From assembly GCA_008932935.1 (NCBI GenBank), contig WBXD01000007.1, forward strand, positions 1 to 36,700: 36,700 nucleotides of DNA, written 5' to 3'. Under the pieces are notes generated by a model that was not told the origin of the DNA, ran no database searches, and worked only from the letters and a program-made list of their open reading frames with translations. Of the stretch, positions 8,062 through 30,645 are shown piece after piece. Every line of letters starts with the position of its first letter. Position 1 is the stretch's first letter. Source of the stretch: Verrucomicrobiota bacterium. Its GTDB lineage: Bacteria; Verrucomicrobiota; Verrucomicrobiia; Verrucomicrobiales; Akkermansiaceae. A program made the translations under genes and the position numbers.

Positions 8062-8077
8062 GGCGGGGAGAAATTTA

Positions 8078-10494: not shown

Positions 10495-10581
10495 ATTGAA
10501 TCGATGGTCGAAAGCTCATGCCACAACGGCTGCATTCAGGTCGAACTCCACTAGAGTCATTGAAAAGCTAAAGCTGCTGCG

Positions 10582-11892
10582 TTAGGTCAAGTTTTCTGCT
10601 CTTGGGTCTTCAAGTCTTGGGTCTTGCGTCTGAGGCACCGCCTCGCCAGCGATGGCGGCCTCTAGCCATGCGCACAACGCCGCGGCTGACGGGCGCTGCT
10701 GCAAGAGCCGTGCCCGCTCCAGCGCGTTCTCCCTGATAGACGCATCTTCAAGGCAGCGTTGCAACAGCGGCAGCAGCCGCCCCGCAGTGAGCCGGCCGAT
10801 GCCAATGCTCAATCCCACCCCCAGTCTCTCGATCCGGGCGGCGTTATCGGGTTGATCCAACGACATGTGAACGACGAGTTGGGGGATTGCCGCGGCGAAA
10901 CATTGTGCCACGGTGCCAATTCCTCCATGATGCACCATGACCGCCGCGCGAGGCAGCAGCAGACTGAAGGGGGCGTAAGCGGACACAAATATGGAGGATG
11001 GAAGATGCAGCGGCACTTGCTCGGACTTGGATGTTAGAAAAACCGCCCGGCATCCCAGCTCGCCAACCACCCGGCTGGCGATTGCGAAAAATTTGGTGGC
11101 ATGATACTGGCCCGTGCCTGCGGTGAAGACTACCGGCCTCTCGCCTGCAGCCAGAAATTGCTCAAGCTCCGCCGCCATGCCGCGCTGTTGCACCATGTCC
11201 TCTAACGGAAAATCCCATTGCAAGGTATTGTCAGGTTGATCCTTCTCCACCCGGCTAAACCAGCTTGGAAAAAGCGCCAGCACGCCGTCGGGCGAATGAT
11301 GCCATAGTTTCCACAGCCGGGTTGGCGGCGTCACTCCATGGACCGCGCAAGCCTCAGCGACCGCAGGAATGGCGAATGGGTCATAAGGACTCGGCAGGGA
11401 GAGGATGAACTTGCGCCACGCCAGCGGCAACAGTCGCAGCAAGCGGAATCCGGGCAGCACCAGCGGCACATCATCGGCGCTCATCATCGCCGCTGGATAG
11501 AGATGCACCGTAATCAAGGGTAGCCGATATTTTTCGCGGGCGATTCGCGCACCGAAGGATATCATCGGGGCCAGCATCAGGTCCGCTTTGCCAATCTCCT
11601 GCAGCACCCGCTCGATTGCTGCTACACACGGCCCGGTCGCGCGTCCGGCATAGGTGAAGGCCACCCGCTTGAACTCGCCTGGCTGCCACAAATCCGCTTC
11701 GGCAAGCATCAGAGGCAGCACATCGGTGTCAGGCGCGACAAACCCGATTCCCTCTGACTCCGCTGTTTGTTGATAGATCGAGGAGGCTATCATCGTCACC
11801 CGATGTCCGCGCTCCAATAGTTGGCGACCCAGCCAAATGAACGGAAAAATGCTCCCTGAAGTGCCGAATGGAATAAGAAGGATGTGACTCAT
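10582..11892 (-). CDS. Glycosyltransferase, GT1/UGT-like (GT-B fold)
   Basis: 436 aa; N-terminal HILLIPFGTSGSIFPFIWLGRQLLERGHRVTMIAS; C-terminal donor motif VMVHHGGIGTVAQCFAAAIPQLVVHMSLDQPDNAARIERLGVG. Confidence 0.88.
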   Translation of the reverse strand: MSHILLIPFGTSGSIFPFIWLGRQLLERGHRVTMIASSIYQQTAESEGIGFVAPDTDVLPLMLAEADLWQPGEFKRVAFTYAGRATGPCVAAIERVLQEIGKADLMLAPMISFGARIAREKYRLPLITVHLYPAAMMSADDVPLVLPGFRLLRLLPLAWRKFILSLPSPYDPFAIPAVAEACAVHGVTPPTRLWKLWHHSPDGVLALFPSWFSRVEKDQPDNTLQWDFPLEDMVQQRGMAAELEQFLAAGERPVVFTAGTGQYHATKFFAIASRVVGELGCRAVFLTSKSEQVPLHLPSSIFVSAYAPFSLLLPRAAVMVHHGGIGTVAQCFAAAIPQLVVHMSLDQPDNAARIERLGVGLSIGIGRLTAGRLLPLLQRCLEDASIRENALERARLLQQRPSAAALCAWLEAAIAGEAVPQTQDPRLEDPRAENLT

Positions 11893-13034: not shown

Positions 13035-16000
13035 ATGGCAAAAGAAGGTATAGCAATCATCGGCATTGGCTGCCGGTTTCCCGGTGGTGTGAGTGACACC
13101 GCCACGTTTTGGCAACTGCTGGCCGAAGGACGCGATGCCGTGTCTGAGGTGCCCACGGATCGCTGGAATGTCGCTCGGTTCTACGACGCGGAAACGGGCT
13201 TGGCCGGCAAATCCATCGCTAAACGCGGGGGATTTCTCGAGCAAATCGACCAATTTGACCCGCAGTTTTTCGGGATTTCCCCGCGTGAGGCGCCCTACAT
13301 AGACCCGCAGCAGCGGCTGTTACTCGAGATTGCGTGGGAGGCAATTGAAGATGCTGGGCAGGTTTTGGACTTTGCGGGAGGTAGCGACATAGGAGTGTTT
13401 ATGGGAGTTTCCCATAATGATTACCAAAACATCCAAACAGGCAGCACGGATCGCAAGGGCATCAGCGCCCACTCGCCAACGGGCAGTGCCCACAGCATCG
13501 CCGCGAACCGGCTTTCCTATTGTTTCAATCTCAATGGCCCGAGTATCGCGATGGACACCGCTTGCTCCTCCGCTCTCACGGCGGTGCACATGGCTTGCGA
13601 GTCGCTGCGGGCTGGTCGCTGCAAGATGGCGCTGGCTGGCGGCGTGACGGTGATCATCACGCCCGACGGGTTTATCGGCTTCTCGCAAGCGGGCATGCTC
13701 TCGCCAGACGGCAAGTGCAAGGCATTTTCGGCGGAGGCCAATGGCTTCGTCCGGGGTGAAGGTGCCGGCATTGTCCTGCTCAAGCCGCTTTCCCAAGCTC
13801 TCGCCGATGGCGATCCGATCCACGGTGTCATCCTCGGTTCCTCGCTCAATCAAGACGGTCATACCAATGGCATTTCGCTCCCATGCCCTGCCGCTCAGGC
13901 CCAATTGGTGCGTGACGCTTGTGCTGATGCGGGCATCCTGGCGGCGGATGTCGGCTTCGTCGAGGCGCACGGCACCGGCACTGCGGTGGGCGATCCCATC
14001 GAGGCCATGGCACTGGCCGACGCTCTTTGCGGTGAGCGCGCGGCGGATTCCCCGCTGCTCATCGGCTCGGTAAAAACCAACCTTGGGCACTTGGAAACTG
14101 CGGCTGGCATTGTCGGCCTCATCAAGGGGATGCTCGTGCTCAAGCGCGGTCTGATCCCGCCAAGCCTGCACTTTGCCAATCCGAGCCCGCACATCGACAT
14201 GGTTGGCCTGAAATTGCGCGTTCCGACGACCCTGGAAGTGTTTCCAAGCAATGGCAAACGCCGCATCGCTGGGGTCAATTCCTTTGGTTTCGGCGGTGCC
14301 AATGCGCACGTCATTCTGGCCGAACCGCCGCTGCAAGCGCCTCACGCACAGGGGCCATTTCCGACGAATCGTTCGTGGCCGCTGGTGATTTCGGCCCGTT
14401 CCGAAGTGGCGCTCAAAGCCACCGCTGGCCGTTTGGCGGCTTGGATCGACAGTCATGAATTGGCAAACGGCACGTCTCCGGTGCTGCCAAAGCTCACCTA
14501 TATGCTCGGTGCCCGCCGCAATCATCACGCTTTCCGCTTGTCGCTTGTCGCCAAGTCGTCCGCCGAGGTGGTTGCCGAGTTGCATGAATTCGCGGCTGGC
14601 AATCCGGTGACTACGGTGCAGACGGCGTTTGCGCCGCGGCCTGAATTTGCGCCGCGCATTGGGTTTGTGATGAGCGGCCAAGGCCCGCAATGGTGGGGGA
14701 TGGGTCGCGAATTGATGCGCCACGAACCGGTCTTCCGCGCCACAGTGGAAGCCTGTGCCGAGGCGATGCGTCCGCACGCCCAGTTCTCTCTGCTAGAGGA
14801 GCTCGGTCGCGACGAGGCGAGTTCCAGAATGCTGGAAACCGAGATTGCACAACCGGCGATTTTCGCAATGCAGTTGGCCTTCGTGGCGCTGTGGAAATCC
14901 ATCGGTGTGGTGCCGAGTGCCGTCGTCGGTCACAGCGTGGGCGAAATCGCTGCGGCCTGCGTCGCGGGCATCCTCAGTCTAGCAGAAGGGGCCCGGATTA
15001 TCGTCCTGCGGGCCAGCATGATGCATCAGTGTGCTCGCGGGGAGGGGACTATGTTGGCGGTGAGCTTGTCGGAGCAAGAAGCGTTGGATGTGATTGCCCG
15101 CCACGACCGCAGCGTCAGCATTGCGGCCTTTAATGGTCCTAGGTCACTTACCCTGGCCGGCATCGCCTCCTCGCTGGAAGCCATCCAAGGCGAGCTGGCC
15201 GCCCAAAATATTTTTGCACGATTTGTGAAGGTGCCTCATCCGTATCACCACGCGATGATGCAGCCCGCGGCGGATCAGCTGATCCAAGGGCTGGCCGACA
15301 TTGCGCCGCAGGCTGAAACGTTGGCGTTTTTCAGCACCGTGACGGGTGAACGCTGCGCAGGCCAACACTGCGATGCCGCCCATTGGGGACGCGGTATCCG
15401 CCAACCCGTTCAGTTTGTCAAAGCCGTCGATGCCATGGCCGACTTCGGCGTGGATATCTGGTTGGAAATCAGCCCTCATCCGGCGCTGTCGCTATCGATT
15501 CAGGAATGCCTCAGTGCCCGTGGCCTTAAGACCCAAGTGACCGCCACGGCTCGCCGTGAGCGCGAGCATGACGGGTTTTTGGAAGCGGCACTTGCGCTCC
15601 ACCGCGGTGGGGTGCTGCTTGATTTCACCGGGCTGACGCCCTCCCGCGAGCTGCTCTCGCTGCCCGCTTATCCGTGGGAGAAGAGCCGCTGGTGGCATGA
15701 AAGTAGCGAGTTGCGCGAGGCACGGCTTACCCACGGCGGCAAGGGGCTGCTCGATGCCCGCCAACCCCGTGCCACGCCAACCTGGACGACGCGCCTCGAC
15801 AATAGGCATCTGGCGTTCCTCAAGGATCACAAGGTGGACACGCACGTGATTTTTCCCGCTGCAGCCTTCGTGGAAATTGCGCTTGAGGTCGGCTTGCAAT
15901 TGTTTGATGGCCGGCCCTTTGCGCTTGAGGATTTCGAGATCCGTCGCCCGCTGATTCTTCCAGACCCGGCGTCGGCCCTCACCCTCGAACTGACCTACGA

Positions 16001-19000
16001 GCCCACCGAACGCAGCTTCACGATCCAGAGCCGCTTTGAGCAAACCAACACATGGTCGGTTCACGTCGTCGGCTCGATGCGTAGCGAGCGCACCGAATCC
16101 TCTTTCGCAAACTCCATCGTCGGCCCGCTCGATGCCGATTTGGCAGCAGAAGACGTCGGCGCTTTCTACGACCACATGAGCGAACTGGGACTGCGCTACG
16201 GCGACGAGTTCCGCCCGATCCGCGAACTGGCCGCCGGAGCTGGGAAATCCGCAGGTCGGGTTGCCTTGTCGGAAATCATCGCCGCCCGCGCCGAGGAATA
16301 CGCGCTGCATCCGGTCCTCTTGGATGGTGCCTTGCAAGTATTCTCCGCAGGCGCCAAGACGGTCGAGGACCGCAGGGCAAAAATGAAACTGCCCGTGCGC
16401 TTCGCGAGGATTTTATTCCTTCGCTCGCCTGGCGCATCAACTCAAATCCGCAGCAAAGTGCTGCATTACAACGATGAGTTGATAGAAGGCCGCATCGGTA
16501 TCTACGACGAGGCCGGCCACCCGTGTGTGCTGGTGGACGGCTTCCGGGCCATCAGCATGAGCGCCACCCGCCGCCCTGGCACCTCAGGTGACAGTCGTGA
16601 TTTGGTTTATCATGTGGATTGGGAACGCAAGGCCCCCACTTCCGCTCCAGCGGTGCAAATTCCGCTGTCATTGGCCCGACTGCGGGACGTTGCCACGGCC
16701 GCATTGAACGAAGTGATTGACCTGCGTGGGCGAGAGCAACTGGAAGGCGTCATGGCAGCCGAGGATCACTTGGCGGCCGCTCAACTCGCCAAGGGTTTGC
16801 GCGAGATGGGGGTGGGCCCCGGATTTTCCGCGGCTTCGCTGGGTGTGACGCCCTTGATGCGCACAGTTTTCGGCCGTTTGATGGCCAAGCTCGTCAAGCG
16901 CGGACTGCTCACGAAGAATGGTGGTACTTACGCTCCGACGGCGGAATTTGGCAGCGCCGCAGACACCGCATCAGATCTGCTCCGAGCCTTTATCACCGAA
17001 CACCCCGGCCACTTGCCCGAAGCCCTGCTCTGCGCGTCATCCTGCGGAGAACTCGCTGCCATCCTGCGCGGCGAAAAAGACGCCGTGCAAATCCTCTTCG
17101 GTGGTGCCAACGCCGAGTTGCTCGATCATTTTTACGGCGATGGCTTGTTCTCTAGCCACTGGATGATCAGCATCGCCAAAGCCGTGCAAGCAGCCGCCCG
17201 CCAACTCCCTGAGGGCCGTGGCTTGCGCATCCTCGAAGTTGGCGCTGGCACCGCGGGCCTCGCCGCGCAATTGTTGCCTCTGCTCGAGCGCGGGTTGCAC
17301 AGCTACACGTTCACCGACGTTTCCGCCGGCTTCTTCTCGGCGGCTAACCAAAAGCTCGCGGCCTTCCCTGAGGTAGAATACAAGGTGCTGGATCTGGAGA
17401 AACCTGCCGCGGAGCAGGAGTTCGAACCGGGCACTTACGATTTTATTGTCGGCACCAACGTGCTGCATGCCGTCGCGGACGTCCGGGTGACGCTGGCAAT
17501 GCTCCATGATCTGCTCGTTGCCGGCGGCACTTTGATGTTCATGGATTTGGCGACGCCGCAGCTGTGGACCGAATCGGTCTTTGGGCTGACGCAGGGTTGG
17601 TGGCATCTAACTGACCGCGATTTGCGGCCCGAGCAACCGCTGATGCAGCGCGCCCAGTGGGAATTCGCGCTCAAGGATGCCGGGTTCGATGAAACCACCT
17701 CAATGCCCGGACTGCTAGGCCCGGAAGGCGAAGGCCAAATTGGCATCCTCGGCAGAAAAACCGACCAGGTGCTAGCCGCCGCGGACGCTCCGCTCGAGAC
17801 GGTCGGTTTAGCGCTTTCTAACGTCGCCGCCGCGGCCACTCCGCTCGAAGCCTGCTGGGTCGTTTTTGCTGACGAGGGGGGACTCGGCAGCGAAGTTGCC
17901 GCGCAAGTTGTCGCTGGCGGAGCGCGCTGCCGGATGGTGCGCCGGGGTGAGCGCTTTGCACGTGTGGGGGCCGACAGCTTTACGCTGCGAGACGAGGAGC
18001 CGGACGACTGGAAAGAGCTTTTGGCCGCCTTGCTCGAAGACACGCCACCAGAACGTTTCGTCTATCTCTGGACCCTCGATGAAAAAATCGGCACCGGCGA
18101 CCACGACGCATTGATGGGCACCGACGCCCTGCTCCACCTGACGCACGCACTGGAAGCAACGCTGGCGGCGGCCAAACTCCGCTTCGATCTGATCACCCGT
18201 GGTGCCCAGCCGGCTGGCTCAAACATGGGTTCCACCAACGTCGCGCAAGCCCCCGCACTCGGGATGTTCCGCGTCATCCTTAGCGAACATCCAAATTTCT
18301 CCTGCCGCGGCATCGACCTGCCAAGCGGCGCCTCAGCAGCCGATTGCCACCTATTGTGGAACGAACTGATGCATGCGGACAACGAACGCGAAGTGGCCCT
18401 GCGTGGCGAGGCCCGCTACGTTCAGCGCATCAGTCATGGTCTGCCGCAGCGCATGCAACACCTTGATTCCTCTGTGCCGCTGCGGCTCGAATCGCGTGAA
18501 CGCGGTCTGCTCGATAGCCTGCATTTCACGCCGTTCACACTGCCACTCTGCGGGCCGGACGATGTGCTCATCCACGTCAAGGCTGCTGGCATGAATTTCC
18601 GCGACGTGCTCAAGGCACTCGCCCTGTACCCGGCGGAAACCGCCGATGCACGGGTTTTTGGCGACGAAGTGGCAGGCGAAGTGCTTGCGATCGGTGCAGA
18701 TATCAGCCACCTCGCCGTCGGCGACAAGGTATTTGGCCTCGCCGTTTTCGGTCTGGCGACCCACTCGCTGGCGCGTGGCTCCGACGTGCGCAAAATGCCA
18801 GACCATCTCTCCTATGAGGAAGCTGCGACGTTGCCGGTCGTGTTCATGACCGCGTGGCATGCGCTTGTGGACGTCGCCAGGATAAAGGCCGGAGAGCGCA
18901 TTCTGATCCACGCCGGCGCCGGTGGTGTTGGCATGGCCGCCGTTCAAATCGCCCATCATCTGGGTGCGGAAGTCATCGCCTCCGCTGGTAGCCTGACCAA

Positions 19001-20720
19001 GCGTGAGCTGCTCAAAACCCTAGGAGTCCGACACGTCATCGACTCCCGCCGAGGGGATTTCGCGGAGTCCGTCATGGAACTAACCCATGGCCGCGGCGTG
19101 GATGTCGTACTCAACGCACTCGCCGCCGAAGCTATCCCGATGGGCTTGTCGTGCCTCGCCGAATCCGGGCGGTTCCTGGAAATCGGCAAGCGCGATATTT
19201 ACCTCAATTCGCGCATCCCGCTGTGGGGATTGCGCCGCAATTGCTCGTTCCACGTCATCGCCATGGACGCTATTTTCGCCGGCGACGCCAACCAAACCCG
19301 CGATCTCCTGGCGCAAATCGCCACTCTCGTCGATCAAGGCGCACTCACTCCGCTGCCATTCCGCTCCTTCCCTGCCAGTCGCATCGACGCCGCGTTCCGC
19401 CTGATGGCTGGCGGCAAGCACACCGGCAAAGTGGTCGTTGGCTTTGCCGATGCCTTCATGCTGAGAAAAGGTGAGCCGCCGTTGCCGCCCTTCGAGGTGA
19501 GGGCGGACGGCGCCTATCTCATTACCGGAGGGCTTGGCGGATTCGGCCGCGTGCTGGCCGAGTGGTTGGTCGATGCCGGCGCCCGCCACCTGGTGCTCAG
19601 CAGTCGCAGCGGGGCCTCCACTCCGGAAACCGTCGAGTTCGTTGCCAGCCTTGTGGCTCGCGGCATTGAAACCACGGTTTTAATAGCTGACATCGGGTCG
19701 CCAGCGGACGTTAAAAGACTCATTGGCGAGCTGCGCACTTCAAAAATTCCACTCAAGGGGATTTTTCACCTTGCGATGGTAATCGACGACGCCCCGCTCT
19801 CGGCCTTGACCGCTGAGCGTCTGCGCACGGTAATGGCTCCGAAAGCGCATGGCGCATGGTTGCTGCATGCCAACACGCAGGGCATGGACCTTGATTGCTT
19901 CGTGATGTTCTCGTCGGTCTCGAGTATCTTCGGCAACCCCGCACAAGGGAACTACTCGGCCGCCAACGCGTTTCTGGATTCCCTCGCCTACCATCGCCGC
20001 GCCCTCGGCCAACCCGCCCTCGCCATCAACTGGGGCGTACTCGGCGGCCAAGGCTACGTCGCTCGCAATGAGCGCGTCGCAGAATTTTTGGCGCGCCAGG
20101 GGACCGGCGCGCTGACACCTGCCGAAGTGACCTCGCTGATGGAATCCTTCCTCACCGCCCACGCTACCCAAGTCGCCGCGATCCGTGTGGATTGGACGAA
20201 ATGGCGGCAATCGTTCCGCGGCATGCAGGACAATCCTCTCGTCGAGCGCATCTTCGCTGCCGGCGTCGAAGTCCAAGATACCAACTCTGGCAGCCACGAC
20301 TGGCGCGCCAAAATCCAAGCCGCGACTCCGGAAGATCTGAAAACCGTCATCGGTGCGGCCGTGCGCGACGTCGTCGGCACCGTGTTGCGTGTCAAGCCGG
20401 AGAGCCTGCGCGAGGATCAACTGCTCACCGACCTCGGCCTGGACTCGCTCATGGGCGTGGAAATCGAAACGATGTTGGAGGCGGCCATCGGCGTGGCGCT
20501 GCCACCCACCAGCCTGATGCGGGCGCGGACGATCGGTCAGATCGCCACCTTGATTGCGGAGCAAATGGGCAGCGATGGGGACAGCGCGGTCAAGCCTGCA
20601 GTGGTCGAACTAGCGGTCGACACTGCGGAGTTGGATCTCGATGCGATTACCGACGAGGACCTTGACCTCTTGCTCGGCGCTGGCATCGACGTGGAACCCA
20701 TCCTGGCCGGAAAAATCTAA
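13035..20720 (+). CDS. Single-module highly reducing type I polyketide synthase: KS-AT-DH-cMT-ER-KR-ACP
   Basis: 2561 aa. KS: DTACSSALTAVHMAC, EAHGTGTAVGDP, KTNLGHLE. AT: GHSVGEIAAA, HPYHHAMMQP. DH: DHKVDTHVIFPAAAF and LLDGALQ. cMT: LRILEVGAGTAGLAAQLLPLLE. ER: HAGAGGVGMAAVQIA. KR: LITGGLGGFGR, IDDAPL, FSSVSSIFGNPAQGNYSAANAFLD. ACP: LGLDSLMGVE. Confidence 0.97.
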   Translation: MAKEGIAIIGIGCRFPGGVSDTATFWQLLAEGRDAVSEVPTDRWNVARFYDAETGLAGKSIAKRGGFLEQIDQFDPQFFGISPREAPYIDPQQRLLLEIAWEAIEDAGQVLDFAGGSDIGVFMGVSHNDYQNIQTGSTDRKGISAHSPTGSAHSIAANRLSYCFNLNGPSIAMDTACSSALTAVHMACESLRAGRCKMALAGGVTVIITPDGFIGFSQAGMLSPDGKCKAFSAEANGFVRGEGAGIVLLKPLSQALADGDPIHGVILGSSLNQDGHTNGISLPCPAAQAQLVRDACADAGILAADVGFVEAHGTGTAVGDPIEAMALADALCGERAADSPLLIGSVKTNLGHLETAAGIVGLIKGMLVLKRGLIPPSLHFANPSPHIDMVGLKLRVPTTLEVFPSNGKRRIAGVNSFGFGGANAHVILAEPPLQAPHAQGPFPTNRSWPLVISARSEVALKATAGRLAAWIDSHELANGTSPVLPKLTYMLGARRNHHAFRLSLVAKSSAEVVAELHEFAAGNPVTTVQTAFAPRPEFAPRIGFVMSGQGPQWWGMGRELMRHEPVFRATVEACAEAMRPHAQFSLLEELGRDEASSRMLETEIAQPAIFAMQLAFVALWKSIGVVPSAVVGHSVGEIAAACVAGILSLAEGARIIVLRASMMHQCARGEGTMLAVSLSEQEALDVIARHDRSVSIAAFNGPRSLTLAGIASSLEAIQGELAAQNIFARFVKVPHPYHHAMMQPAADQLIQGLADIAPQAETLAFFSTVTGERCAGQHCDAAHWGRGIRQPVQFVKAVDAMADFGVDIWLEISPHPALSLSIQECLSARGLKTQVTATARREREHDGFLEAALALHRGGVLLDFTGLTPSRELLSLPAYPWEKSRWWHESSELREARLTHGGKGLLDARQPRATPTWTTRLDNRHLAFLKDHKVDTHVIFPAAAFVEIALEVGLQLFDGRPFALEDFEIRRPLILPDPASALTLELTYEPTERSFTIQSRFEQTNTWSVHVVGSMRSERTESSFANSIVGPLDADLAAEDVGAFYDHMSELGLRYGDEFRPIRELAAGAGKSAGRVALSEIIAARAEEYALHPVLLDGALQVFSAGAKTVEDRRAKMKLPVRFARILFLRSPGASTQIRSKVLHYNDELIEGRIGIYDEAGHPCVLVDGFRAISMSATRRPGTSGDSRDLVYHVDWERKAPTSAPAVQIPLSLARLRDVATAALNEVIDLRGREQLEGVMAAEDHLAAAQLAKGLREMGVGPGFSAASLGVTPLMRTVFGRLMAKLVKRGLLTKNGGTYAPTAEFGSAADTASDLLRAFITEHPGHLPEALLCASSCGELAAILRGEKDAVQILFGGANAELLDHFYGDGLFSSHWMISIAKAVQAAARQLPEGRGLRILEVGAGTAGLAAQLLPLLERGLHSYTFTDVSAGFFSAANQKLAAFPEVEYKVLDLEKPAAEQEFEPGTYDFIVGTNVLHAVADVRVTLAMLHDLLVAGGTLMFMDLATPQLWTESVFGLTQGWWHLTDRDLRPEQPLMQRAQWEFALKDAGFDETTSMPGLLGPEGEGQIGILGRKTDQVLAAADAPLETVGLALSNVAAAATPLEACWVVFADEGGLGSEVAAQVVAGGARCRMVRRGERFARVGADSFTLRDEEPDDWKELLAALLEDTPPERFVYLWTLDEKIGTGDHDALMGTDALLHLTHALEATLAAAKLRFDLITRGAQPAGSNMGSTNVAQAPALGMFRVILSEHPNFSCRGIDLPSGASAADCHLLWNELMHADNEREVALRGEARYVQRISHGLPQRMQHLDSSVPLRLESRERGLLDSLHFTPFTLPLCGPDDVLIHVKAAGMNFRDVLKALALYPAETADARVFGDEVAGEVLAIGADISHLAVGDKVFGLAVFGLATHSLARGSDVRKMPDHLSYEEAATLPVVFMTAWHALVDVARIKAGERILIHAGAGGVGMAAVQIAHHLGAEVIASAGSLTKRELLKTLGVRHVIDSRRGDFAESVMELTHGRGVDVVLNALAAEAIPMGLSCLAESGRFLEIGKRDIYLNSRIPLWGLRRNCSFHVIAMDAIFAGDANQTRDLLAQIATLVDQGALTPLPFRSFPASRIDAAFRLMAGGKHTGKVVVGFADAFMLRKGEPPLPPFEVRADGAYLITGGLGGFGRVLAEWLVDAGARHLVLSSRSGASTPETVEFVASLVARGIETTVLIADIGSPADVKRLIGELRTSKIPLKGIFHLAMVIDDAPLSALTAERLRTVMAPKAHGAWLLHANTQGMDLDCFVMFSSVSSIFGNPAQGNYSAANAFLDSLAYHRRALGQPALAINWGVLGGQGYVARNERVAEFLARQGTGALTPAEVTSLMESFLTAHATQVAAIRVDWTKWRQSFRGMQDNPLVERIFAAGVEVQDTNSGSHDWRAKIQAATPEDLKTVIGAAVRDVVGTVLRVKPESLREDQLLTDLGLDSLMGVEIETMLEAAIGVALPPTSLMRARTIGQIATLIAEQMGSDGDSAVKPAVVELAVDTAELDLDAITDEDLDLLLGAGIDVEPILAGKI

Positions 20721-20728
20721 TTTGACGG

Positions 20729-22087
20729 ATGTCATCGGACCCGCGAGCGCAGTTCAAGCAATGGCTGGAGAACGGGGATGCCCGCCTCCAACCGCTCACT
20801 CTGCCACAGCGTGAATTGTGGGAGCATGCAGCGGTGCCGGTGGCGGACCCTGCAAACCACATTTGCGGACTCATCGAGATCAAGGGGCCGATCACCCCGG
20901 AGCAAGGTGCCGCGGCACTCCAGCGCGTCATCGAGCGGCAGGAGGCACTGCGGATTTCGTTTTTGCCGGGCAAGGGCCGCCCGTTGCAGATGATCCGAAC
21001 AACGGGGACGGCGGTGCTGGGTTTTCGCGTGCTCAAGGCCAACGACGTACTGGAAGACGTGATGCAGCAAATCTGCCGGCAACCGTTCGACATGCTGCAA
21101 GGACCGCTGCACCGCATGGAAATGATCCGCCGCGCACCCAACGACCATGTGCTGGCCTTTGCCTTCCATCACGCCATTGCCGACGGATGGTCGCTGGGTG
21201 TGTTCGTGCAGGATCTATGCACGGCTTATGTCATGGGGCTCTCCGGCCTGCGCAAGACCATGGCCATGGGGATGATGGGTCTGAAAAACTCGCTGCTGCC
21301 GGTAACCCAGACGTACAGCGAATGGGCGACAGCCGAACGGGCCCTCTGTCAGCCTGAGTTGTTGGCCAGCAAAGTCGCTTTCTGGAAGTCACAGCTCGCC
21401 GGATCGAGTCGAATCTGGAGTGGTGCCACTGAGGCGGCGCCCTTGCAGCGCTGGGTCGCCGTGATCCCTTCGAACTTGGTGCGGGGCGTCAAGTCCTTGG
21501 CCGTGAGTCACAGCACGACGATGTTCAGCACGCTACTGGCAGCATTTCAGCTCTCACTGGCGAAATGGACCGGCAAGGATGATATCCTCGTCGGCACCCC
21601 GGTGGCCAACCGCAATAAGGTGACCATCCGCCAAACCATCGGCTACTTCGCCGGGGTGGTTCCCCTCCGCGCGCAGATTGATCCCTCACACAATTTCTCC
21701 CAACACCTGCAGGCGGTGGCCACAGCCGCCCTCGATGCCTTCGCCAACGCTATGCCCTTCGCCGAGCTCGCCGCCGCCCTTGGTGCAGACCACACGGCGG
21801 GCGAACATGCCATCTTCGATGTGCGTTTCGCGCTGCAGAACCACCCAGTGCCCGACGTGGTGATGGCGCGCATTTCCACCAAGCTGCGGATGCGTTCCAC
21901 CGGCACCGCTAGGTTCGATCTCGGCTGCGAGATTACCGAAATTGGCAGCGAGCTGGAGGTGGTCTGGTTGTTCAAGCCTCGTCGCATTCCCGCGGCAACC
22001 ATTGCTGCGTTGCACGAGCTTTTCCTCGCGATTTTAAAGCTTGTCTCCAGTAATCCACAACACCGGGTGACCGCACTAACTAATTAA
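20729..22087 (+). CDS. Stand-alone condensation-domain protein (NRPS C-domain / PapA-like acyltransferase superfamily)
   Basis: 452 aa. HHxxxDG motif in AFAFHHAIADGWSLGVFVQDL; FDMLQGPLHRMEMIR; ILVGTPVANRNKVTIRQTIGYFAGVVPLRAQID. No adenylation or carrier domain. Starts 8 bp after the PKS stop. Confidence 0.9.
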   Translation: MSSDPRAQFKQWLENGDARLQPLTLPQRELWEHAAVPVADPANHICGLIEIKGPITPEQGAAALQRVIERQEALRISFLPGKGRPLQMIRTTGTAVLGFRVLKANDVLEDVMQQICRQPFDMLQGPLHRMEMIRRAPNDHVLAFAFHHAIADGWSLGVFVQDLCTAYVMGLSGLRKTMAMGMMGLKNSLLPVTQTYSEWATAERALCQPELLASKVAFWKSQLAGSSRIWSGATEAAPLQRWVAVIPSNLVRGVKSLAVSHSTTMFSTLLAAFQLSLAKWTGKDDILVGTPVANRNKVTIRQTIGYFAGVVPLRAQIDPSHNFSQHLQAVATAALDAFANAMPFAELAAALGADHTAGEHAIFDVRFALQNHPVPDVVMARISTKLRMRSTGTARFDLGCEITEIGSELEVVWLFKPRRIPAATIAALHELFLAILKLVSSNPQHRVTALTN

Positions 22088-22091
22088 TCTC

Positions 22092-23087
22092 ATGGCTTAT
22101 CTAGCAACTAACAATAGCGACTGCGTGCCGCCTGTCGTGGCAGTGGATGACGATGACCACGGTAACACGCATTGGGTGAGCCGGGCGGCCTTTCCCCTGA
22201 TCAGTGCCGCGCTGATGGTCACCCAGATCGCGCTTGGATTCGCCTATCACTATGACTTGATTTGGTTGTGTCTACCGCTGGCCTTTCTCGTTAGCCACTT
22301 CATGCATGGGCTGCTCATCGGCTTTCACGAAGCCTCCCACGGACTCTTGCGGAAAAACCGTTTTTTCAATGAATTTGACGGCATGCTCACCGGGACGCTC
22401 AGTTTCATGAGCTTCACGCTCTATCGCGCGGCGCATCAAAAGCATCACTCGCACCTTGCCACCGAGCGGGACGTCGAGTTATGGCCCTTCGTGATCGTCA
22501 CTTCGCCACGCTGGCAACGGCGCTTGGCTGCCCTCATCGAACTGAACTTGGGCATTCTGTACACACCCTTTTTATTTATGCGGGTTTTCATCCAGCAGGA
22601 TTCATTAGTTAGAAGCCGGAAAGTCCGCCGCCGGATCTGGCTCGAATTTGCTCTGATCCTCGTGGTCTGGTCAACGATCCTCATCACGGTCACTCGGTTC
22701 CATGTCTGGGACTATTTCGTCTGGGTTTTGCTCGGGCCGGCCGTAATCGCGGGCAATCTTCAGAGTTGGCGCAAATACATCGAACACGTCGGCTTGAGCG
22801 GCCACACCGCCAGAAGCGCCACCCGCAGCATCGTGGCTCATTCTTGGTCCGGCCGCCTCCTTGCGCTCACCTTGCTGCACGAGCCGTTTCACGGGATTCA
22901 TCATCTCAAGATGGCGTTGCCTCATGACCAACTGCCATCTCACGCGGCGTTGCTGGATCCGACGGCGGAAGGGGATGTGGCGCCGTTCCCTAACTACCGC
23001 TCGGCGGTGATGGACCTGCTGCGCAATCTCTCCGATCCCAAATCCGGCAGCCATTGGCCCGCTGCGCCGCCACAATCACACACCTAG
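22092..23087 (+). CDS. Membrane fatty-acid desaturase family protein
   Basis: 331 aa with three His boxes: GFHEASHGLL, AAHQKHHSH and HEPFHGIHH; hydrophobic segments. Starts 4 bp after the condensation protein stop. Confidence 0.9.
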   Translation: MAYLATNNSDCVPPVVAVDDDDHGNTHWVSRAAFPLISAALMVTQIALGFAYHYDLIWLCLPLAFLVSHFMHGLLIGFHEASHGLLRKNRFFNEFDGMLTGTLSFMSFTLYRAAHQKHHSHLATERDVELWPFVIVTSPRWQRRLAALIELNLGILYTPFLFMRVFIQQDSLVRSRKVRRRIWLEFALILVVWSTILITVTRFHVWDYFVWVLLGPAVIAGNLQSWRKYIEHVGLSGHTARSATRSIVAHSWSGRLLALTLLHEPFHGIHHLKMALPHDQLPSHAALLDPTAEGDVAPFPNYRSAVMDLLRNLSDPKSGSHWPAAPPQSHT

Positions 23088-23137: not shown

Positions 23138-23165
23138 CTCCCCCCCAAATGGGGGAGGTTTTTTT
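23138..23165 (+). terminator. Rho-independent terminator at the end of the PKS operon
   Basis: CTCCCCC-CCAAAT-GGGGGAG stem-loop followed by GTTTTTTT. Confidence 0.85.
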
Positions 23166-23388
23166 GCTGGCGCAAACCGCCATATCTGCTACCTACTCAC
23201 ATCGACTCCGCTCAACCCCCCAGTTTCCAGCCTGTCAAAACCACCCATTCCTAGGTCCGAAATCGCGAAACCCACCGCCCCGGACCTTCCCCCCATCAAG
23301 GGGATTCCCTTCTTCTATCCACTATTTCCTCGCCTCTTCCGTTTGGAATTTAGTGCGTATCATTGATTGCTTAACTCACAATAATACC

Positions 23389-26300
23389 ATGAAACCGCCC
23401 CGCCTCTCTCTCGCCCTCGCGCTCTGCGCCATCCTGGCCCTGCCGTCCGCACCGGCGGCCAATCAGATCAAGGCGAACACGACCACCACGTTGGCGGCAG
23501 CGGACTGGGGTGGAACCATGCCCGGTACCGCCGACATTGGTGAGTTCAACAACGTCATTAGCGCAGCCAATGCGTTGGGCGTGACCATTGATGCGGGCGC
23601 CGGCTTGTCCGTAGGAGGTCTAAAGTTCGACAACAACCTGCCCGGACCAGTCGTCTTCCTTTCCGGAGGGGGCATCCTCACCCTCAACACCCTCAACGGC
23701 ACGAACTTGGACCTCTCGACGACCAATAACGACGTGACCATCAACGCCCCGGTAGTACTCGCCAACAACCAGATTTGGACTGTGAACACCGGCAAAACAC
23801 TCACCATCAACGGCACCATTACCGGCACAGGCATCACCCTGACCAAGAGCAGCAATCCCGGCAATCTGGTCATCGCGAGTACCGGCAACGCCTTCGCCGC
23901 ACTGACTCTCAACCTTGGTCAGGTGACCCTCAATAACTCGGCAACCATGACTCTGACGGGAGCGACCTATTTGGAGGGTGGTAACGCCAGTCCGATCATG
24001 CTGGACGTCAACAACGCCACGTTCACCACCGCGAGCATGACCACACGGGATGGTCAGGTTGTGGTGGAAGGCACGACGGGCAGCATCGTCATGGGCGGCA
24101 CCTTGACCATGGGCACGGGGGATGGAAGAAAATCCGCTATCTACCTCAAGAACTCGGGTTCGATCTACGGCACCAGCTCCACCCCCAAGGCTCTGAGCAT
24201 GGGTGCCGGATATACTCAACAAGACACCTACTTCAAGCTTCAAGATAACACAACGGCGAGCTTCAGTACTGCTGCAGTATTGAATTCGGCCAACTATTGC
24301 GATGGCCACGGTCATGGAAGCGTCCTGGAACTCCAGGATAGTTCGGCGCTGACCACCACCAGCGATGCGTTTGTGGTGCAAAACGCAAGTGACAACGGGA
24401 GGAGTGGGACACTTTACGCCTACGGACAGATCTATCAGCATGGCGGCACGCTGACAGTGGGCGGCAGCCTCAAGCTTGCCGACAACATCAATGCCCCCTC
24501 CGCGGGCAATGGCAGCGGGCCGACGATATTCAAAGTAGTTGCCGCCTACAACCTGAACAGCGGAACACTGAAGGTGGCCGGGCAAATCCTCGGTGGCAAC
24601 TCTTCCGCAAACTATGGCCTGCCGTTTTTGAACTTTCATGGCGGCACGCTGGTCTATACTGGCACCACCACTCAGACCGACTTTATCAACTTGAGCAAGA
24701 CCACCGGCGCATACGGTAAGAACGGCACCGCCAATGCCCGCATTTGGGAAAGCGCCACGATCGACACCGGTGCCAAGGACGTGACCATCGCGCAATCGTT
24801 GATGGCTCCCAGCGGTCAAGGGGTCAGTGCCATCGCCATCACCAATTTGCCCACTCCAAACTATGTCTATTACAACAATGTGCCGCCGTGGGTGTACATC
24901 GACGGCGGTGGCGGGACCGGTGCGACCGCGGTGGCCACACTCGATCCAGCTACGGGCAAAGTCAACGCCATCGTCGTAACCAACCCGGGCAACAACTATA
25001 CCAGCAAACCGACCATCGAATTGGTCCGCAATGACCTGATCCAGACAATCTCCGCTGTAGATATCACGCTGACGACGAACACGACTGGCGGTTCGGGAGC
25101 TTATCACGGCGATCTAGCCAAACTTGGCAGTGGCACGCTGACCCTTTCCGGCGTGAACACCTACGCCGGCACCACCACTGTCAGCGTAGGCGCACTGGCT
25201 ATTACCAACGGCTACAGCCTCGGCGCGGGGCCGTTGGTGGTGGCACCCGGCGCAACAGTCAGCTTGAGCAATGTTTCGCCCGCGTTTGTAGCTTCCCTCT
25301 CTCTTGGTGGCAACGCCAAGGCCAACGGCACCTGGGGGGCAACCGGCTCCGCTGCCGCAAATATTGATGATACCTATTTTGTCGGCACCGGTATCCTTAC
25401 CGTCGGCACTGGCACCACCACCGCCACCACGCTTGTCACCTCGGGCACTCCCTCGGTGTATGGATCTTCGTTGACATTCACCGCCACAGTCGCGCCCACG
25501 CCCACCGGTGGCACGGTCCAGTTCTATGACAACGGAGCGGCTTTGGCCAGCGCGGTAACGGTCAACACCAGCACTGGCCAGGCATCGTATGCGACCAACG
25601 GGTTGTTGGTGGGTTCTCACACGATTTCGGCGACCTACAGCGGCACGACGGGCTATGTCACCAGTGCCAACACGGGTATCCCCCAGACGGTCACCCAGAG
25701 GCCGGTGACCTTGACGGGCACCAAGGTGTATGACGGTACGGCGACGATTGCGGGTGCCAGCATGTCTGTTAGCAATGCGGTTGGCAGCGAAACGGTCAAT
25801 TTGGGCAGCACCTTCGGCATCTTGAGCGGTGCCAATGTCGGATCGCGGACCCTTTCTGCCACCAATCCGGTCCTCCGGGTACAATCGGCCACCGGGAGCA
25901 CCGGTGCCGTCGCCGACGTGACCCTGCCCGTGACGCTGGGTTCCGCCCCGCTGAACGGCAATACGCTCGTCGCGGTGATCTCGACGCGCGGCACGAGTGC
26001 CGGCCGGGTAAGCGGTATTAGCGGAGGCGGGGTGAGCTGGTCTCGCGTCTCGCAGTCAACCGGCACGGCCGGCACGACCACAGAAATCTGGTATGGCCCG
26101 AACGTCTCGGCTGGCACCACCGCCATTACCATCACACAGGGTTCACTGCTCTCAGCGGCGGTGGTGGTTGAATACGGCGGCTTGTTGACTCCGACCTCGT
26201 TTGATGTGGCGGGGAACAACGCTGGCAACAGCGCCGCTGCCGTTACCGGCACTTCCGCCAACACGCAACAGGGAAGTGCCGAGTTGTGTGTTGGCGGCAT

Positions 26301-27852
26301 CGGCTTGGTCGATAGCACCTACACGCTCTCCGGCATCCTCAACTCTTTCGTTCCCGTGGCCAACGCGGCGTCAACCTCCGTCACCACCAATACCAACTCG
26401 GTGGTCTACGCCCTGGAGGGAGTGGTGACGACCAGCGGTGCGGGGTTGTCCTCGGGCGGCACGGTCAGCACCTCATCTCAGTGGTCGGGTGCCATCGCCA
26501 CCTTCAGGGCGGTCCCGGTTTCCCCGGTTGTCCGCGTGCAGTCCGCCACTGGAAATACGGGTGCCAGCGCCAGCACCAGTTTTAGCGTGACCCTCGGTGC
26601 AACCCCGGTGACCGGCAATACCCTTATCGCCGTGATTTCCACGCGCGCCGTATCGACGCAGAACGCGGTAAGCACCATCACCGGAGGCGGAGTCAATTGG
26701 TCACGCCAGAGAGCCGCAGGTTCTGTCACCGTGAATTCGGCCGAAATCTGGTATGGCACGCCCGTCGCCACAGGCACCACCGCCATTATCATCACGACTG
26801 CCGCCTCCGTTTTCGCGGCGGCTGTGGTCATGGAATACACCGGCGTGTTGGCCGGTACCGAAAGCCAGGCGGACGCACAAAACGTCGGTACTGCCTTGCT
26901 CACCGGGGGCAATAATACCTCACAAGCAAATGAATTGTGGATCGGTGGCTTCGGCTTGGTGGACAGCACCTACACGCTTTCCACCTTCACTGCCGGCTTC
27001 ACCCCAGTAGCCAACACCGCCTCCGCCAGTGCCACAGCCTCCGATAACTCCGCTGTTTATGCCATTGAAAAAATTGTTAATGCTACCGGCAATACCCAGG
27101 GCGGGGCCACACTCAGTACCTCGTCGCGATGGGCCGCATGTGTGGTGGCCTTCAAGGCCAAGCAACTGACGTTGGCGGGTGCCAATGCGGCCAACTACAC
27201 GCTCGCCGGCATGACCGGCTCGGTTGCGGTGACGGCACAGCCGCTGTCGGTGACGGCACCCTTGATTGCCGACAAGCCATACGATGGTTCGCCCGCCGCT
27301 GCTGCGGTTACCGTGGGGACGCTGTCGGGATTTGTCGCTACTGAAACCGTCAGCACGACGGCAACAGCAGCGAATTATCCGAGTGCCGCCGCCGGAACGT
27401 ATCCCGGCACGGTTATTACCTACACGCTCCACGATGGAACCAATGGCGGATTGGCCGCCAACTACAGTTTGGCCAATGGGACTGCAACCGGGACGATCAC
27501 CGGGGGGAATTCCTACATCACCTGGGCCAGCACACACGCCGGTGGCCAGGCGGCGAATCTTGATTTCGACAAAGACGGCATTCCCAATGGTGTGGAATAC
27601 TTCATGGGCGCGCCGGTCGGCGTCACCGCCAATCCTTCGGTGGTGACCGCCTCGGGAGTTAGAACCGTGACCTGGCCTCGCAATGCTGCCAATGGAGTCA
27701 CGTCTTGGTTGGTTCAGGTCTCAGATAACCTCGTCACTTGGACAAATGTCGTGCCGCCCAACTCGAGTATCGACACGGCTGATCCCTCCAAAGTGGTTTT
27801 CACCTTGCCCAGCGGCCCAACGAAATTCTGCCGCCTAGTGGTCACCCCGTAA
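23389..27852 (+). CDS. Large secreted surface/exoprotein with autotransporter-associated repeat, Ig-like and YDG-type domains
   Basis: Signal-peptide start at 23389 (MKPPRLSLALALCAILALPSAPAANQ). Autotransporter-associated repeat GSGTLTLSGVNTYAGTTTVSVGALAI; Ig-like GTVQFYDNGAALASAVTVNTSTGQASYATNGLLVGSHTISATYSG; YDG motif TLTGTKVYDGTATIAG. C-terminal LDFDKDGIPNGVEYFMGAPVG. Confidence 0.85.
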   Translation: MKPPRLSLALALCAILALPSAPAANQIKANTTTTLAAADWGGTMPGTADIGEFNNVISAANALGVTIDAGAGLSVGGLKFDNNLPGPVVFLSGGGILTLNTLNGTNLDLSTTNNDVTINAPVVLANNQIWTVNTGKTLTINGTITGTGITLTKSSNPGNLVIASTGNAFAALTLNLGQVTLNNSATMTLTGATYLEGGNASPIMLDVNNATFTTASMTTRDGQVVVEGTTGSIVMGGTLTMGTGDGRKSAIYLKNSGSIYGTSSTPKALSMGAGYTQQDTYFKLQDNTTASFSTAAVLNSANYCDGHGHGSVLELQDSSALTTTSDAFVVQNASDNGRSGTLYAYGQIYQHGGTLTVGGSLKLADNINAPSAGNGSGPTIFKVVAAYNLNSGTLKVAGQILGGNSSANYGLPFLNFHGGTLVYTGTTTQTDFINLSKTTGAYGKNGTANARIWESATIDTGAKDVTIAQSLMAPSGQGVSAIAITNLPTPNYVYYNNVPPWVYIDGGGGTGATAVATLDPATGKVNAIVVTNPGNNYTSKPTIELVRNDLIQTISAVDITLTTNTTGGSGAYHGDLAKLGSGTLTLSGVNTYAGTTTVSVGALAITNGYSLGAGPLVVAPGATVSLSNVSPAFVASLSLGGNAKANGTWGATGSAAANIDDTYFVGTGILTVGTGTTTATTLVTSGTPSVYGSSLTFTATVAPTPTGGTVQFYDNGAALASAVTVNTSTGQASYATNGLLVGSHTISATYSGTTGYVTSANTGIPQTVTQRPVTLTGTKVYDGTATIAGASMSVSNAVGSETVNLGSTFGILSGANVGSRTLSATNPVLRVQSATGSTGAVADVTLPVTLGSAPLNGNTLVAVISTRGTSAGRVSGISGGGVSWSRVSQSTGTAGTTTEIWYGPNVSAGTTAITITQGSLLSAAVVVEYGGLLTPTSFDVAGNNAGNSAAAVTGTSANTQQGSAELCVGGIGLVDSTYTLSGILNSFVPVANAASTSVTTNTNSVVYALEGVVTTSGAGLSSGGTVSTSSQWSGAIATFRAVPVSPVVRVQSATGNTGASASTSFSVTLGATPVTGNTLIAVISTRAVSTQNAVSTITGGGVNWSRQRAAGSVTVNSAEIWYGTPVATGTTAIIITTAASVFAAAVVMEYTGVLAGTESQADAQNVGTALLTGGNNTSQANELWIGGFGLVDSTYTLSTFTAGFTPVANTASASATASDNSAVYAIEKIVNATGNTQGGATLSTSSRWAACVVAFKAKQLTLAGANAANYTLAGMTGSVAVTAQPLSVTAPLIADKPYDGSPAAAAVTVGTLSGFVATETVSTTATAANYPSAAAGTYPGTVITYTLHDGTNGGLAANYSLANGTATGTITGGNSYITWASTHAGGQAANLDFDKDGIPNGVEYFMGAPVGVTANPSVVTASGVRTVTWPRNAANGVTSWLVQVSDNLVTWTNVVPPNSSIDTADPSKVVFTLPSGPTKFCRLVVTP
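25870..26526 (+). repeat. Tandem protein repeat copy 1 (~219 aa)
   Basis: VLRVQSATGSTGA...NTLVAVISTRG...SGISGGGVSWSR...EIWYGPNVSAGTTAITIT...AAVVVEYGG...GGIGLVDSTYTLS...FVPVANAAS...SSQWSGAIATFRA; collinear with the next repeat. Confidence 0.9.
26527..27162 (+). repeat. Tandem protein repeat copy 2 (~212 aa)
   Basis: VVRVQSATGNTGA...NTLIAVISTRA...STITGGGVNWSR...EIWYGTPVATGTTAIIIT...AAVVMEYTG...GGFGLVDSTYTLS...FTPVANTAS...SSRWAACVVAFKA; collinear with copy 1. Confidence 0.9.
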
Positions 27853-27984: not shown

Positions 27985-28710
27985 GTGCAAAACTGCACTG
28001 TGGCTCTCGATACTGCAACACCCCCCGGTAAATTGATCTATCAGGCGATCGGCCTGCAGAAGCAATTCGACAATGGCAAGGTGGCCGCCTTGCGCGGCTT
28101 GGATTTGGAGATCCGGCAGGGGGAGTTTGTGGCGATTGTGGGCCAGAGCGGCTGCGGCAAGAGTACCTTGTTGCAGATGCTCGGCGCACTGGACAAGCCC
28201 AGTGCAGGCACGCTGAAGTACCGTGGCAACTCAATCCCCGACCTGCCAGATCCTGCGGCGTATCGCGCTCAACAGATTGGTTTCGTCTTCCAGGCGTTTC
28301 ATTTATTGCCGACTTTCACCGTCTTGGAGAACGTCCAAATCCCCATGTTCGGCGGCAATTTATCACGCCCACAGCGCAAGGCTGGGGCCGCTGAATTGTT
28401 AGAATCCGTCGGCCTCGGGCATAGGTTCAATCATTATCCATCCGAACTGTCCGGTGGCGAACGCCAGCGCGTCGCCATCGCCCGCGGCCTTGCTAACAAG
28501 CCTGGCGTGGTCTTGGCGGACGAACCGACCGGCAATCTCGACAGTGAAAGCGCCCTCCAGATCATTGACCTGCTGCTGGATCTTCACCGCAAGTTAGGTG
28601 TGACGCTGGTGCTCGTCACCCATGACCTGAGCATCGCCGCACGCGCCTCGCGCATCATCCGGATGAAAGACGGTCGCGTGATCTCGGACCAAGCCACGCC
28701 CACCAACTAA
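27985..28710 (+). CDS. ABC transporter ATP-binding protein (LolD/MacB type)
   Basis: 241 aa with GTG start. Walker A GQSGCGKSTLLQMLG; signature ELSGGERQRVAIARGLANKPGVVLADEPTGNLDS; H-loop LVLVTHDLSIA. Confidence 0.93.
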   Translation: MQNCTVALDTATPPGKLIYQAIGLQKQFDNGKVAALRGLDLEIRQGEFVAIVGQSGCGKSTLLQMLGALDKPSAGTLKYRGNSIPDLPDPAAYRAQQIGFVFQAFHLLPTFTVLENVQIPMFGGNLSRPQRKAGAAELLESVGLGHRFNHYPSELSGGERQRVAIARGLANKPGVVLADEPTGNLDSESALQIIDLLLDLHRKLGVTLVLVTHDLSIAARASRIIRMKDGRVISDQATPTN

Positions 28711-28722
28711 CACCTAACTGCC

Positions 28723-29838
28723 ATGACGTTTTTTACCATCGTTCTCCGCAGCTTGACTCGGCGCCCTGTTCGCACTGGTCTGACCTTGGTTGGCATTTCC
28801 ATCGGCATCGCCGCCGTCGTCACCCTCGTCGGCATGGCTTGGGGCTATGAAAAGGGCGTCGCCAACCAATTGGACGCCGTGGGGACCGACGTGGTGGTGA
28901 GCAACATGAGCGGCGGCTTGATGCCCAAGGTGTTTAATGAATCGCTGAAGGCAAAAGTCGCCACGCTGCCGCGGGTGGTAGATGCCACATCCATCTTGAT
29001 GCAGATGTTGAGTGTGGAGGATGCTCCTATCATGATGATATCGGGCCGAGAGTGGGGCGGCTTCGCCTGGCAAAAAATGTCACTGCTCGAGGGCCGCATG
29101 CCCAAAAACGCTGCCGAAAAGGCCGTGGTCCTCGGCACCCTCGCCGCCGAGGTGCTCAAAAAAAAAGTGGGCGACACCGTCCAAATCGAGGTCGAGGAGT
29201 TGCCCGTCGTCGGCATTGTGGACGGACATGCATTGATGGAAAATGGCACCATCTTCCTGTCCCTGAAGGTGATGCAAGAGGTCACGGGCAATGACGGCAA
29301 AATCAATTTTGTGAACATTAGGGCAATTCCTAACACATCGAAAGCGCAAATCAATCAGCTGTGTAGGGACATCCATGGCATTTTTCCGGAAGGTCGGGCG
29401 ATGGTCTCGACCGAGGTGGTTGGCACCAGCCAAGGGTTTCGTGTGATCCGGGCCATCAGTTGGAGTACCTCACTGCTGGCCATTATCGTGGGCGTGCTCG
29501 GCGTGATGAACACCATGCTCATGACCGTGTTTGAGCGCACTCACGAAATCGGCATTCTGTTAGCCGTGGGCTGGCGGCGGCGGCGGATTGTGGCCATGGT
29601 GCTGTGCGAGTCCGCGCTGTTAGGTTTGCTCGGTGGCCTCGTCGGCGTGGGTCTCGGGGTGCTTGGCCTCGTTACCTTGGGCGCCTCGCCCGGCGTGCGT
29701 GGCTTCATTGAGCCGGATCTCAACCCGCAACTGATGCTCATTTCCATCGCCATCTCCGTTGTTGTCGGCGTGATCAGCGGTCTGTATCCGGCGTGGCGCA
29801 GTTCACGCCTCACGCCGAGTGTTGCACTGCAAAGTTAA
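28723..29838 (+). CDS. ABC transporter permease (MacB/FtsX family)
   Basis: 371 aa; N-terminal RSLTRRPVRTGLTLVGISIGIAAVVTLVG; C-terminal LLAIIVGVLGVMNTMLMTVFERTHEIGILLAVGWRRRRIVAMVLCESALLGLLGGLVG...SGLYPAWRSSRLTPSVALQS. Confidence 0.93.
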   Translation: MTFFTIVLRSLTRRPVRTGLTLVGISIGIAAVVTLVGMAWGYEKGVANQLDAVGTDVVVSNMSGGLMPKVFNESLKAKVATLPRVVDATSILMQMLSVEDAPIMMISGREWGGFAWQKMSLLEGRMPKNAAEKAVVLGTLAAEVLKKKVGDTVQIEVEELPVVGIVDGHALMENGTIFLSLKVMQEVTGNDGKINFVNIRAIPNTSKAQINQLCRDIHGIFPEGRAMVSTEVVGTSQGFRVIRAISWSTSLLAIIVGVLGVMNTMLMTVFERTHEIGILLAVGWRRRRIVAMVLCESALLGLLGGLVGVGLGVLGLVTLGASPGVRGFIEPDLNPQLMLISIAISVVVGVISGLYPAWRSSRLTPSVALQS

Positions 29839-29853
29839 CTCCAATTTGCTCAT

Positions 29854-30645
29854 ATGAAATCGCTGCTTCGTTCTATTCTTCACGCCTTGCCCGCTGCTGC
29901 GCTGCTGGTGGCAGTCGCGGGTGCCCAGGATGCCACGCCATCACCTCGCGAACTCGCCGCACAACTCAGCAGCAGCATTCAGGATGGGTCGTCAGTTTTG
30001 CGCGTGAAAATGGAGATTAACGCTGCAAGTGGCGGTGGCAAGACGGTGTTGCAGATTCAAGTGAAGTCGCTGCGCAGCAAGAATTCCACGGATTTAATTT
30101 ATCAGATTCTCTGGCCCAAGGAGCGCAAGGGCGAGTCATTCCTCCTGCACAAGTCAGCCGGTCGCGCTCCTAGCGGCACACTATTCACCCCGCCTGCCGC
30201 GATGCTGCCTGTGACCGCAGCAAAAATCAAGGATGGCGTCTTCAGCAGCGATCTTGCGTACGAGGATCTGGTGGAGAATTTCTTCGCGTGGGAGAAGCAA
30301 GCCAGTGTCGGTTCCGAGGTCATTAATCGGGTGCCTTGCCAAATCCTCGAATCCAAGCCGGGCAAGGGGGATGATACTGGCTATTCGCAGGTGCGCAGTT
30401 GGATCGATACCAAGCTCATGGTCACCATGCGTGTGGAGAAATACAAGGGCGCAGGCAAGCTGGCAAAACGCATTGATACCACCCGGGTGTCCAAGGACGA
30501 TACCGGCAAATGGATTGGCTCGAGCTTCTCACTGCAGCGGCCAGGGCAGAATTCCACCACGGCAATCGAAGGCTCCAACAGCAAACATGGCATGACTTTC
30601 TCCGCCACTGATTTCACCCCGGAGGCTCTCCGAACTCTCAAGTAA
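29854..30645 (+). CDS. LolA-like outer-membrane lipoprotein-sorting family protein
   Basis: 263 aa with signal peptide. Residues such as LIYQILWPKERKGESFLLHKSAGRAPSGTLFTPP...MLPVTAAKIKDGVFSSDLAYEDLVENFF...SKPGKGDDTGYSQVRSWIDTKLMVTMRVEKYK resemble the LolA-like sorting family found with MacB/FtsX transporters. Confidence 0.8.
   Translation: MKSLLRSILHALPAAALLVAVAGAQDATPSPRELAAQLSSSIQDGSSVLRVKMEINAASGGGKTVLQIQVKSLRSKNSTDLIYQILWPKERKGESFLLHKSAGRAPSGTLFTPPAAMLPVTAAKIKDGVFSSDLAYEDLVENFFAWEKQASVGSEVINRVPCQILESKPGKGDDTGYSQVRSWIDTKLMVTMRVEKYKGAGKLAKRIDTTRVSKDDTGKWIGSSFSLQRPGQNSTTAIEGSNSKHGMTFSATDFTPEALRTLK

Follow-up and report, generated by a model that had tools for sequence, protein, structure and literature searches.

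A YDG domain interrupted by two tandem modules of an undescribed family in an adhesin-like protein of Verrucomicrobiota

Insertion of one domain into another, also in nested form, is well documented, and most inserts are single and smaller than the domain that hosts them. To this known principle the locus described here adds an inserted family that is undescribed, an unusual ratio of insert to host size and a set of states that can be read as a series. In an ECOD survey of 48,263 pairs, the insert was smaller than the host in 77% of events, with medians of 115 and 199 residues (PMC13114784). The A1-B-A2 architecture of those insertions recurs here, and A1-B1-C-B2-A2 is found in two relatives (L074 and L075), but in this case a host of about 85 residues carries an insert of 215 residues, or two of them in tandem (430). 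The host is the YDG domain of bacterial filamentous and adhesin proteins (PF18657), which is distinct from the SRA-YDG domain of UHRF1. The name mostly leads to that unrelated domain, and no papers on PF18657 itself were found. As in other members of the family, Big_3_5, MBG_2 and more YDG domains lie next to the YDG domain studied here. Whereas the Pfam profile runs without a break, its positions 62 and 67 are parted here by 215 residues in the relatives or by about 430 in the window, i.e., the whole 36,700-nucleotide stretch of DNA that was analyzed.

The window comes from the fragmented genome (G000; 178 contigs, about 71% complete) of an uncultured bacterium of Akkermansiaceae type, and its relatives in the named collections are Akkermansiaceae MAGs. 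The host protein is encoded on the forward strand by an open reading frame of 1567 residues (23149-27852). The ATG at 23389 is the likelier start (23389-27852), because a signal-peptide-like stretch, MKPPRLSLALALCAILALPSAPAA, begins there; the annotated-style frame runs from 23149. The domains follow in the order PATR/autotransporter-type beta-strand repeat, Big_3_5 Ig-like domain, interrupted YDG, second YDG and C-terminal domain. Pfam matches in the protein (P0002) were PATR (residues 656-685), Big_3_5 (residues 763-849; 25435-25695, forward strand, directly before the interrupted YDG), the next, uninterrupted YDG (residues 1363-1444; 27235-27480, forward strand) and a partial YDG, and the NCBIfam match was an autotransporter-associated strand repeat (TIGR02601). 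For the C-terminal beta-barrel translocator of a classical, type Va autotransporter, no Pfam autotransporter match was obtained in the 1567-aa protein.

The surroundings of the gene were surveyed as well. Upstream, the region 13035-23087 encodes a type I polyketide synthase (KS-AT-DH-MT-ER-KR-ACP), after which come a condensation domain that forms a protein of its own and a fatty acid desaturase; lying beside the adhesin gene, this region is likely a small biosynthetic cluster. Adjoining the polyketide synthase, the minus strand at 4999-11892 encodes an RND efflux operon (AcrB-type pump, HlyD-type fusion protein and outer membrane factor) together with a UDP-glycosyltransferase-like gene. Directly downstream of the adhesin gene, genes for an ABC ATPase, a MacB/FtsX permease and a LolA-like lipoprotein-sorting protein were found at 27985-30645.

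In the initial annotation, a YDG domain split by two tandem, collinear repeats of about 215 aa had been proposed, and the coordinates given for the repeats were borne out. The stretch at 25681-27270 consists of the YDG N-terminal part (25684-25866, forward strand; PF18657 positions 5-62), which ends at SATN, module copy 1 (25870-26526), module copy 2 (26527-27162) and the YDG C-terminal part (27163-27252, forward strand; PF18657 positions 67-84), which resumes with QLTLAGANAANYTL. The two halves had also been said to read as a normal YDG domain once joined, and the Pfam profile agreed: the joined sequence scored 54.7 bits over positions 5-84 of 85 (gathering score, 25), compared to 32.9 bits for the N-terminal and 14.7 bits for the C-terminal part alone and 26.7 bits for the intact 530-aa stretch with the inserts in place. 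With the N-terminal half followed by its native continuation, the first 33 residues of the real insert, the control score was 30.5 bits, over which joining the C-terminal half gained more than 20 bits. As the halves fill adjoining profile positions, removing the inserts leaves a whole domain, and its interruption by two modules between profile positions 62 and 67 was confirmed.

The same pattern was observed in four other nested hosts, where the joined YDG scored 41.8-48.0 bits versus 28.4-35.0 bits for the N-terminal halves, and a continuous YDG relative (L089) scored 42.0 bits. The motif of the C-terminal part, LxLxGxxAxNYTLxGxxGxVxVT, is kept in all nested hosts. Because the halves reach good scores only when the module is removed, standard annotation misses such YDG domains. 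In the AlphaFold2 model of a nested relative (L022), both YDG halves were of low confidence (pLDDT about 40-55) and were not assembled with each other. The domain presumably refolds around the insert from its two parts.

Both module copies lie on the forward strand. Copy 1 has its core at 25870-26514, followed by the linker PVSP (26515-26526), and the core of copy 2 is at 26527-27159. They are collinear over their full length of about 215 aa each, with 51% protein identity, and their DNA shows matching blocks of 75-85% identity at a spacing of 651-660 bases. Searches with the module returned no match above the curated cut-off in Pfam or NCBIfam and no PDB sequence match; the family is undescribed in Pfam and NCBIfam. 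The GC content of the inserts (0.65 and 0.60) is close to that of the host gene (0.58-0.68) and thus gives no sign of recent foreign DNA.

The fold of the module was predicted with AlphaFold2 from copy 1 aligned with 24 relatives, giving an all-beta model of 13 strands with a pLDDT of 91.2 and a pTM of 0.91. A Foldseek search of the PDB, with either the nested model or the module alone, returned nothing at E <= 0.001, with TM at most about 0.25. Among viral models (BFVD), there were 73 matches at E <= 0.001, nearly all from tailed phages and several named minor tail protein, and the best of these, Caudovirales proteins, reached TM 0.82/0.76 and 0.79/0.78, with predicted structures on both sides. 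The predicted fold superposes over its full length on Caudovirales tail or minor tail beta-sandwich domains (BFVD A0A2Z4QGS8 and A0A6J5LI46). Unlike those domains, the module sits within another domain of a secreted, cellular protein and has no detectable phage sequence match: none was obtained by tblastn among 50,697 phage records, and plasmid records likewise gave none. The PHROG matches were weak (phrog_2729, virion structural protein; best value 0.0012, 2 of 24 members). Predicted structure thus suggests kinship of the module with phage tail proteins. It is not part of a virion: the protein that contains it has a signal peptide, PATR and Ig-like domains, and its gene lies among bacterial genes.

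Relatives were sought by a scan of 84,980 species genomes and by family-wide searches. Exactly one module was found at the same YDG site in about 45 other hosts, which belong to Akkermansiaceae, other Verrucomicrobiota families and Bacteroidota, including the isolate Flavobacterium aquicola (L023). Among these hosts is a paralogue in the window genome (L002; C1, 3265-aa frame), with one module at the same place in its YDG domain. Within the family, the module is present in 21 of 260 genomes. The site is empty in a host of the same genus (L089; G703:C81), whose continuous YDG domain of the same subfamily reads ...VGAQAITSTSGLTLGGIAMANYTLTG... and was the best match of the joined-host profile, with 91.8 bits on a profile made from nested hosts. 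Within one YDG subfamily, the module accordingly occurs in zero (L089), one (about 45 hosts) and two copies (the window), so that both the empty and the single-copy relatives which the initial annotation had suggested looking for exist. A second host with two tandem copies inside a YDG domain was not seen among the relatives found. Seven proteins (L019, L020, L027, L029, L033, L034 and L038) from Bacteroidota and Geobacteraceae have the module alone at the N terminus, directly behind the signal peptide, and it is therefore an autonomous domain. L073 (G679:C7:11008-12312) holds two divergent relatives of the module in tandem, but not within a YDG domain.

The origin of the insertion was analyzed in a tree of 74 YDG domains (46 nested hosts, L089 and 27 other uninterrupted YDGs; 96 columns, insert left out). 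The nested hosts and L089 formed one group apart from the 27 other YDGs (SH-aLRT 97), and the nested or empty label required 2 changes on this tree, compared to a mean of 22.6 after shuffling. A single insertion, either followed by one loss or made after L089 had split off, suffices to explain this distribution; the result counts as support and not as proof, since the tree has only 96 columns and the empty-host profile, made from nested hosts, favors this subfamily. In one YDG subfamily, nesting of a single copy is inherited and nearly fixed, and the insertion did not take place in the window gene itself. Of the proposal that a module was inserted into this domain and then duplicated, the sequence of steps is upheld by the empty host, the single-copy hosts, the standalone modules and the sisterhood of the two window copies described below. 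The module did enter a YDG domain, but this happened before the present gene, which inherited the single-copy state. A fixed architecture, named in the initial annotation as something that would refute the proposal, thus applies to the insertion but not to the doubling, and the doubling is what is new in the window gene.

In the tree of the inserts, standalone and nested modules were mixed (4 changes), so that the module may have moved in and out of YDG domains repeatedly, although a single clade of standalone modules was not rejected (AU p 0.27). This mixing would also fit a YDG site that is a permissive surface point tolerating beta-sandwich modules and that was filled independently several times, as would L032, in which two YDG domains of one protein (frame 2, residues about 818-1070 and 1334-1545) are each interrupted by a divergent module, the first of them very divergent, and L074 and L075, in which a further, different module sits within the module, before its last strand. 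The nested hosts, however, are one YDG subfamily in a single clade with one empty member seen, and all of them carry the same insert family, whereas independent events should strike other YDG subfamilies in the arrays, too. Several independent fillings are for these reasons regarded as unlikely, and a single old insertion followed by inheritance is preferred.

The window host YDG itself groups with Bacteroidota hosts (SH-aLRT 87), and its neighboring domains are similar to those in F. aquicola L023 and Algoriphagus L030. Transfer of the window host YDG between phyla is possible. An exchange of inserts between hosts, with inserts from the L018/L022 group and a host YDG grouping with Bacteroidota, was considered on the basis of a 32-row module tree and was dropped when the insert part was lost in the larger, careful tree.

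The careful 54-module tree placed the two copies of the window as sisters with a support of 98/91, which speaks for a later tandem duplication. The distance between them is about 1.1 changes per column, and the doubling is therefore old. An assembly error as its source was rejected, as about half of the residues differ between the copies. Acquisition of copy 2 from another gene by recombination between paralogues, instead of tandem duplication in place, would be in line with the earlier 32-row tree, where sister support was weaker (84/34) and copy 2 was on a long branch, and with an AU test on a short-search tree, which did not reject a clade of copy 1 and the L018/L022 group. Against this, the 54-row tree joins the copies, and no closer relative of copy 2 was found in the window genome. 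Recombination of this kind is given a small chance only, and duplication in place is retained.

In L075 (G280:C67) and L074 (G708:C252), nesting reaches three levels: the YDG domain contains the module, and the module contains a domain of about 235 residues from another family. This second module is nested in the same way as the window module, but it belongs to a different family and lies inside the first module instead of in the YDG domain, entering just before the last strand (QWSGAxATFK). Elsewhere in the genus, its family (SKPxGVxxGDVMIA type) also follows signal peptides on its own, and it has direct sequence matches to Rhodococcus phage minor tail proteins (E 3e-8 to 1e-4). Profile comparison by hhalign of 11 sequences of the second module with the first aligned 189 collinear columns (E 0.0034, probability 9.5%), and the same comparison with 2 sequences of the second module gave no result. 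The alignment is suggestive of a distant kinship between the two modules.

That the YDG halves are not one domain, the C-terminal part stemming from a composite linker with a chance likeness in low-complexity, beta-rich repeats, draws on the shortness of the halves, the repetitive and compositionally biased region and their unassembled state in the AlphaFold2 model, but is very improbable given that the C-terminal part fits exactly the missing profile positions and outscores the native continuation when joined, that an NYTL-type C-terminal part follows the module in every nested relative, and that an uninterrupted homologue exists (L089).

The interrupted YDG would belong to the stalk of a long, secreted protein resembling adhesins. 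In an ancient event, a self-standing module of about 215 aa, probably a beta-sandwich of the phage-tail type, would have been inserted in a loop or at a strand junction before the last hairpin in one YDG subfamily, and the nested arrangement would then have been inherited and spread among Verrucomicrobiota and Bacteroidota, with a later tandem duplication of the module inside the same site in the window gene. The YDG domain would still fold from two parts, and the module chain would leave and re-enter it at a single point, so that one head (the usual case) or two heads in series (the window) may project to the side of a stalk built from Ig-like, YDG and MBG domains. Taken as a whole, this account of an old insertion into a YDG stalk, its inheritance, a later doubling and side-on heads is considered probable. 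By analogy with phage tails and from the adhesin-like context, the modules may be binding heads for a carbohydrate or other surface ligand, and two heads may raise avidity or widen specificity.

The empty, single, double and doubly nested states survive in close relatives, and the steps by which the architecture was built can be read from them directly. A bolder reading, offered only tentatively, is that in adhesins of Verrucomicrobiota and Bacteroidota one point of the YDG stalk is a long-lived docking site for binding modules of the phage-tail type, which can be exchanged, doubled (the window) or re-nested there (L074 and L075). If true, it would mean recursive building of multiheaded, side-on adhesins from parts shared with phage tails, contrary to the usual pattern in which the insert is the smaller partner. 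The module is a candidate binding head for the large uncharacterized adhesins of freshwater Verrucomicrobiota.
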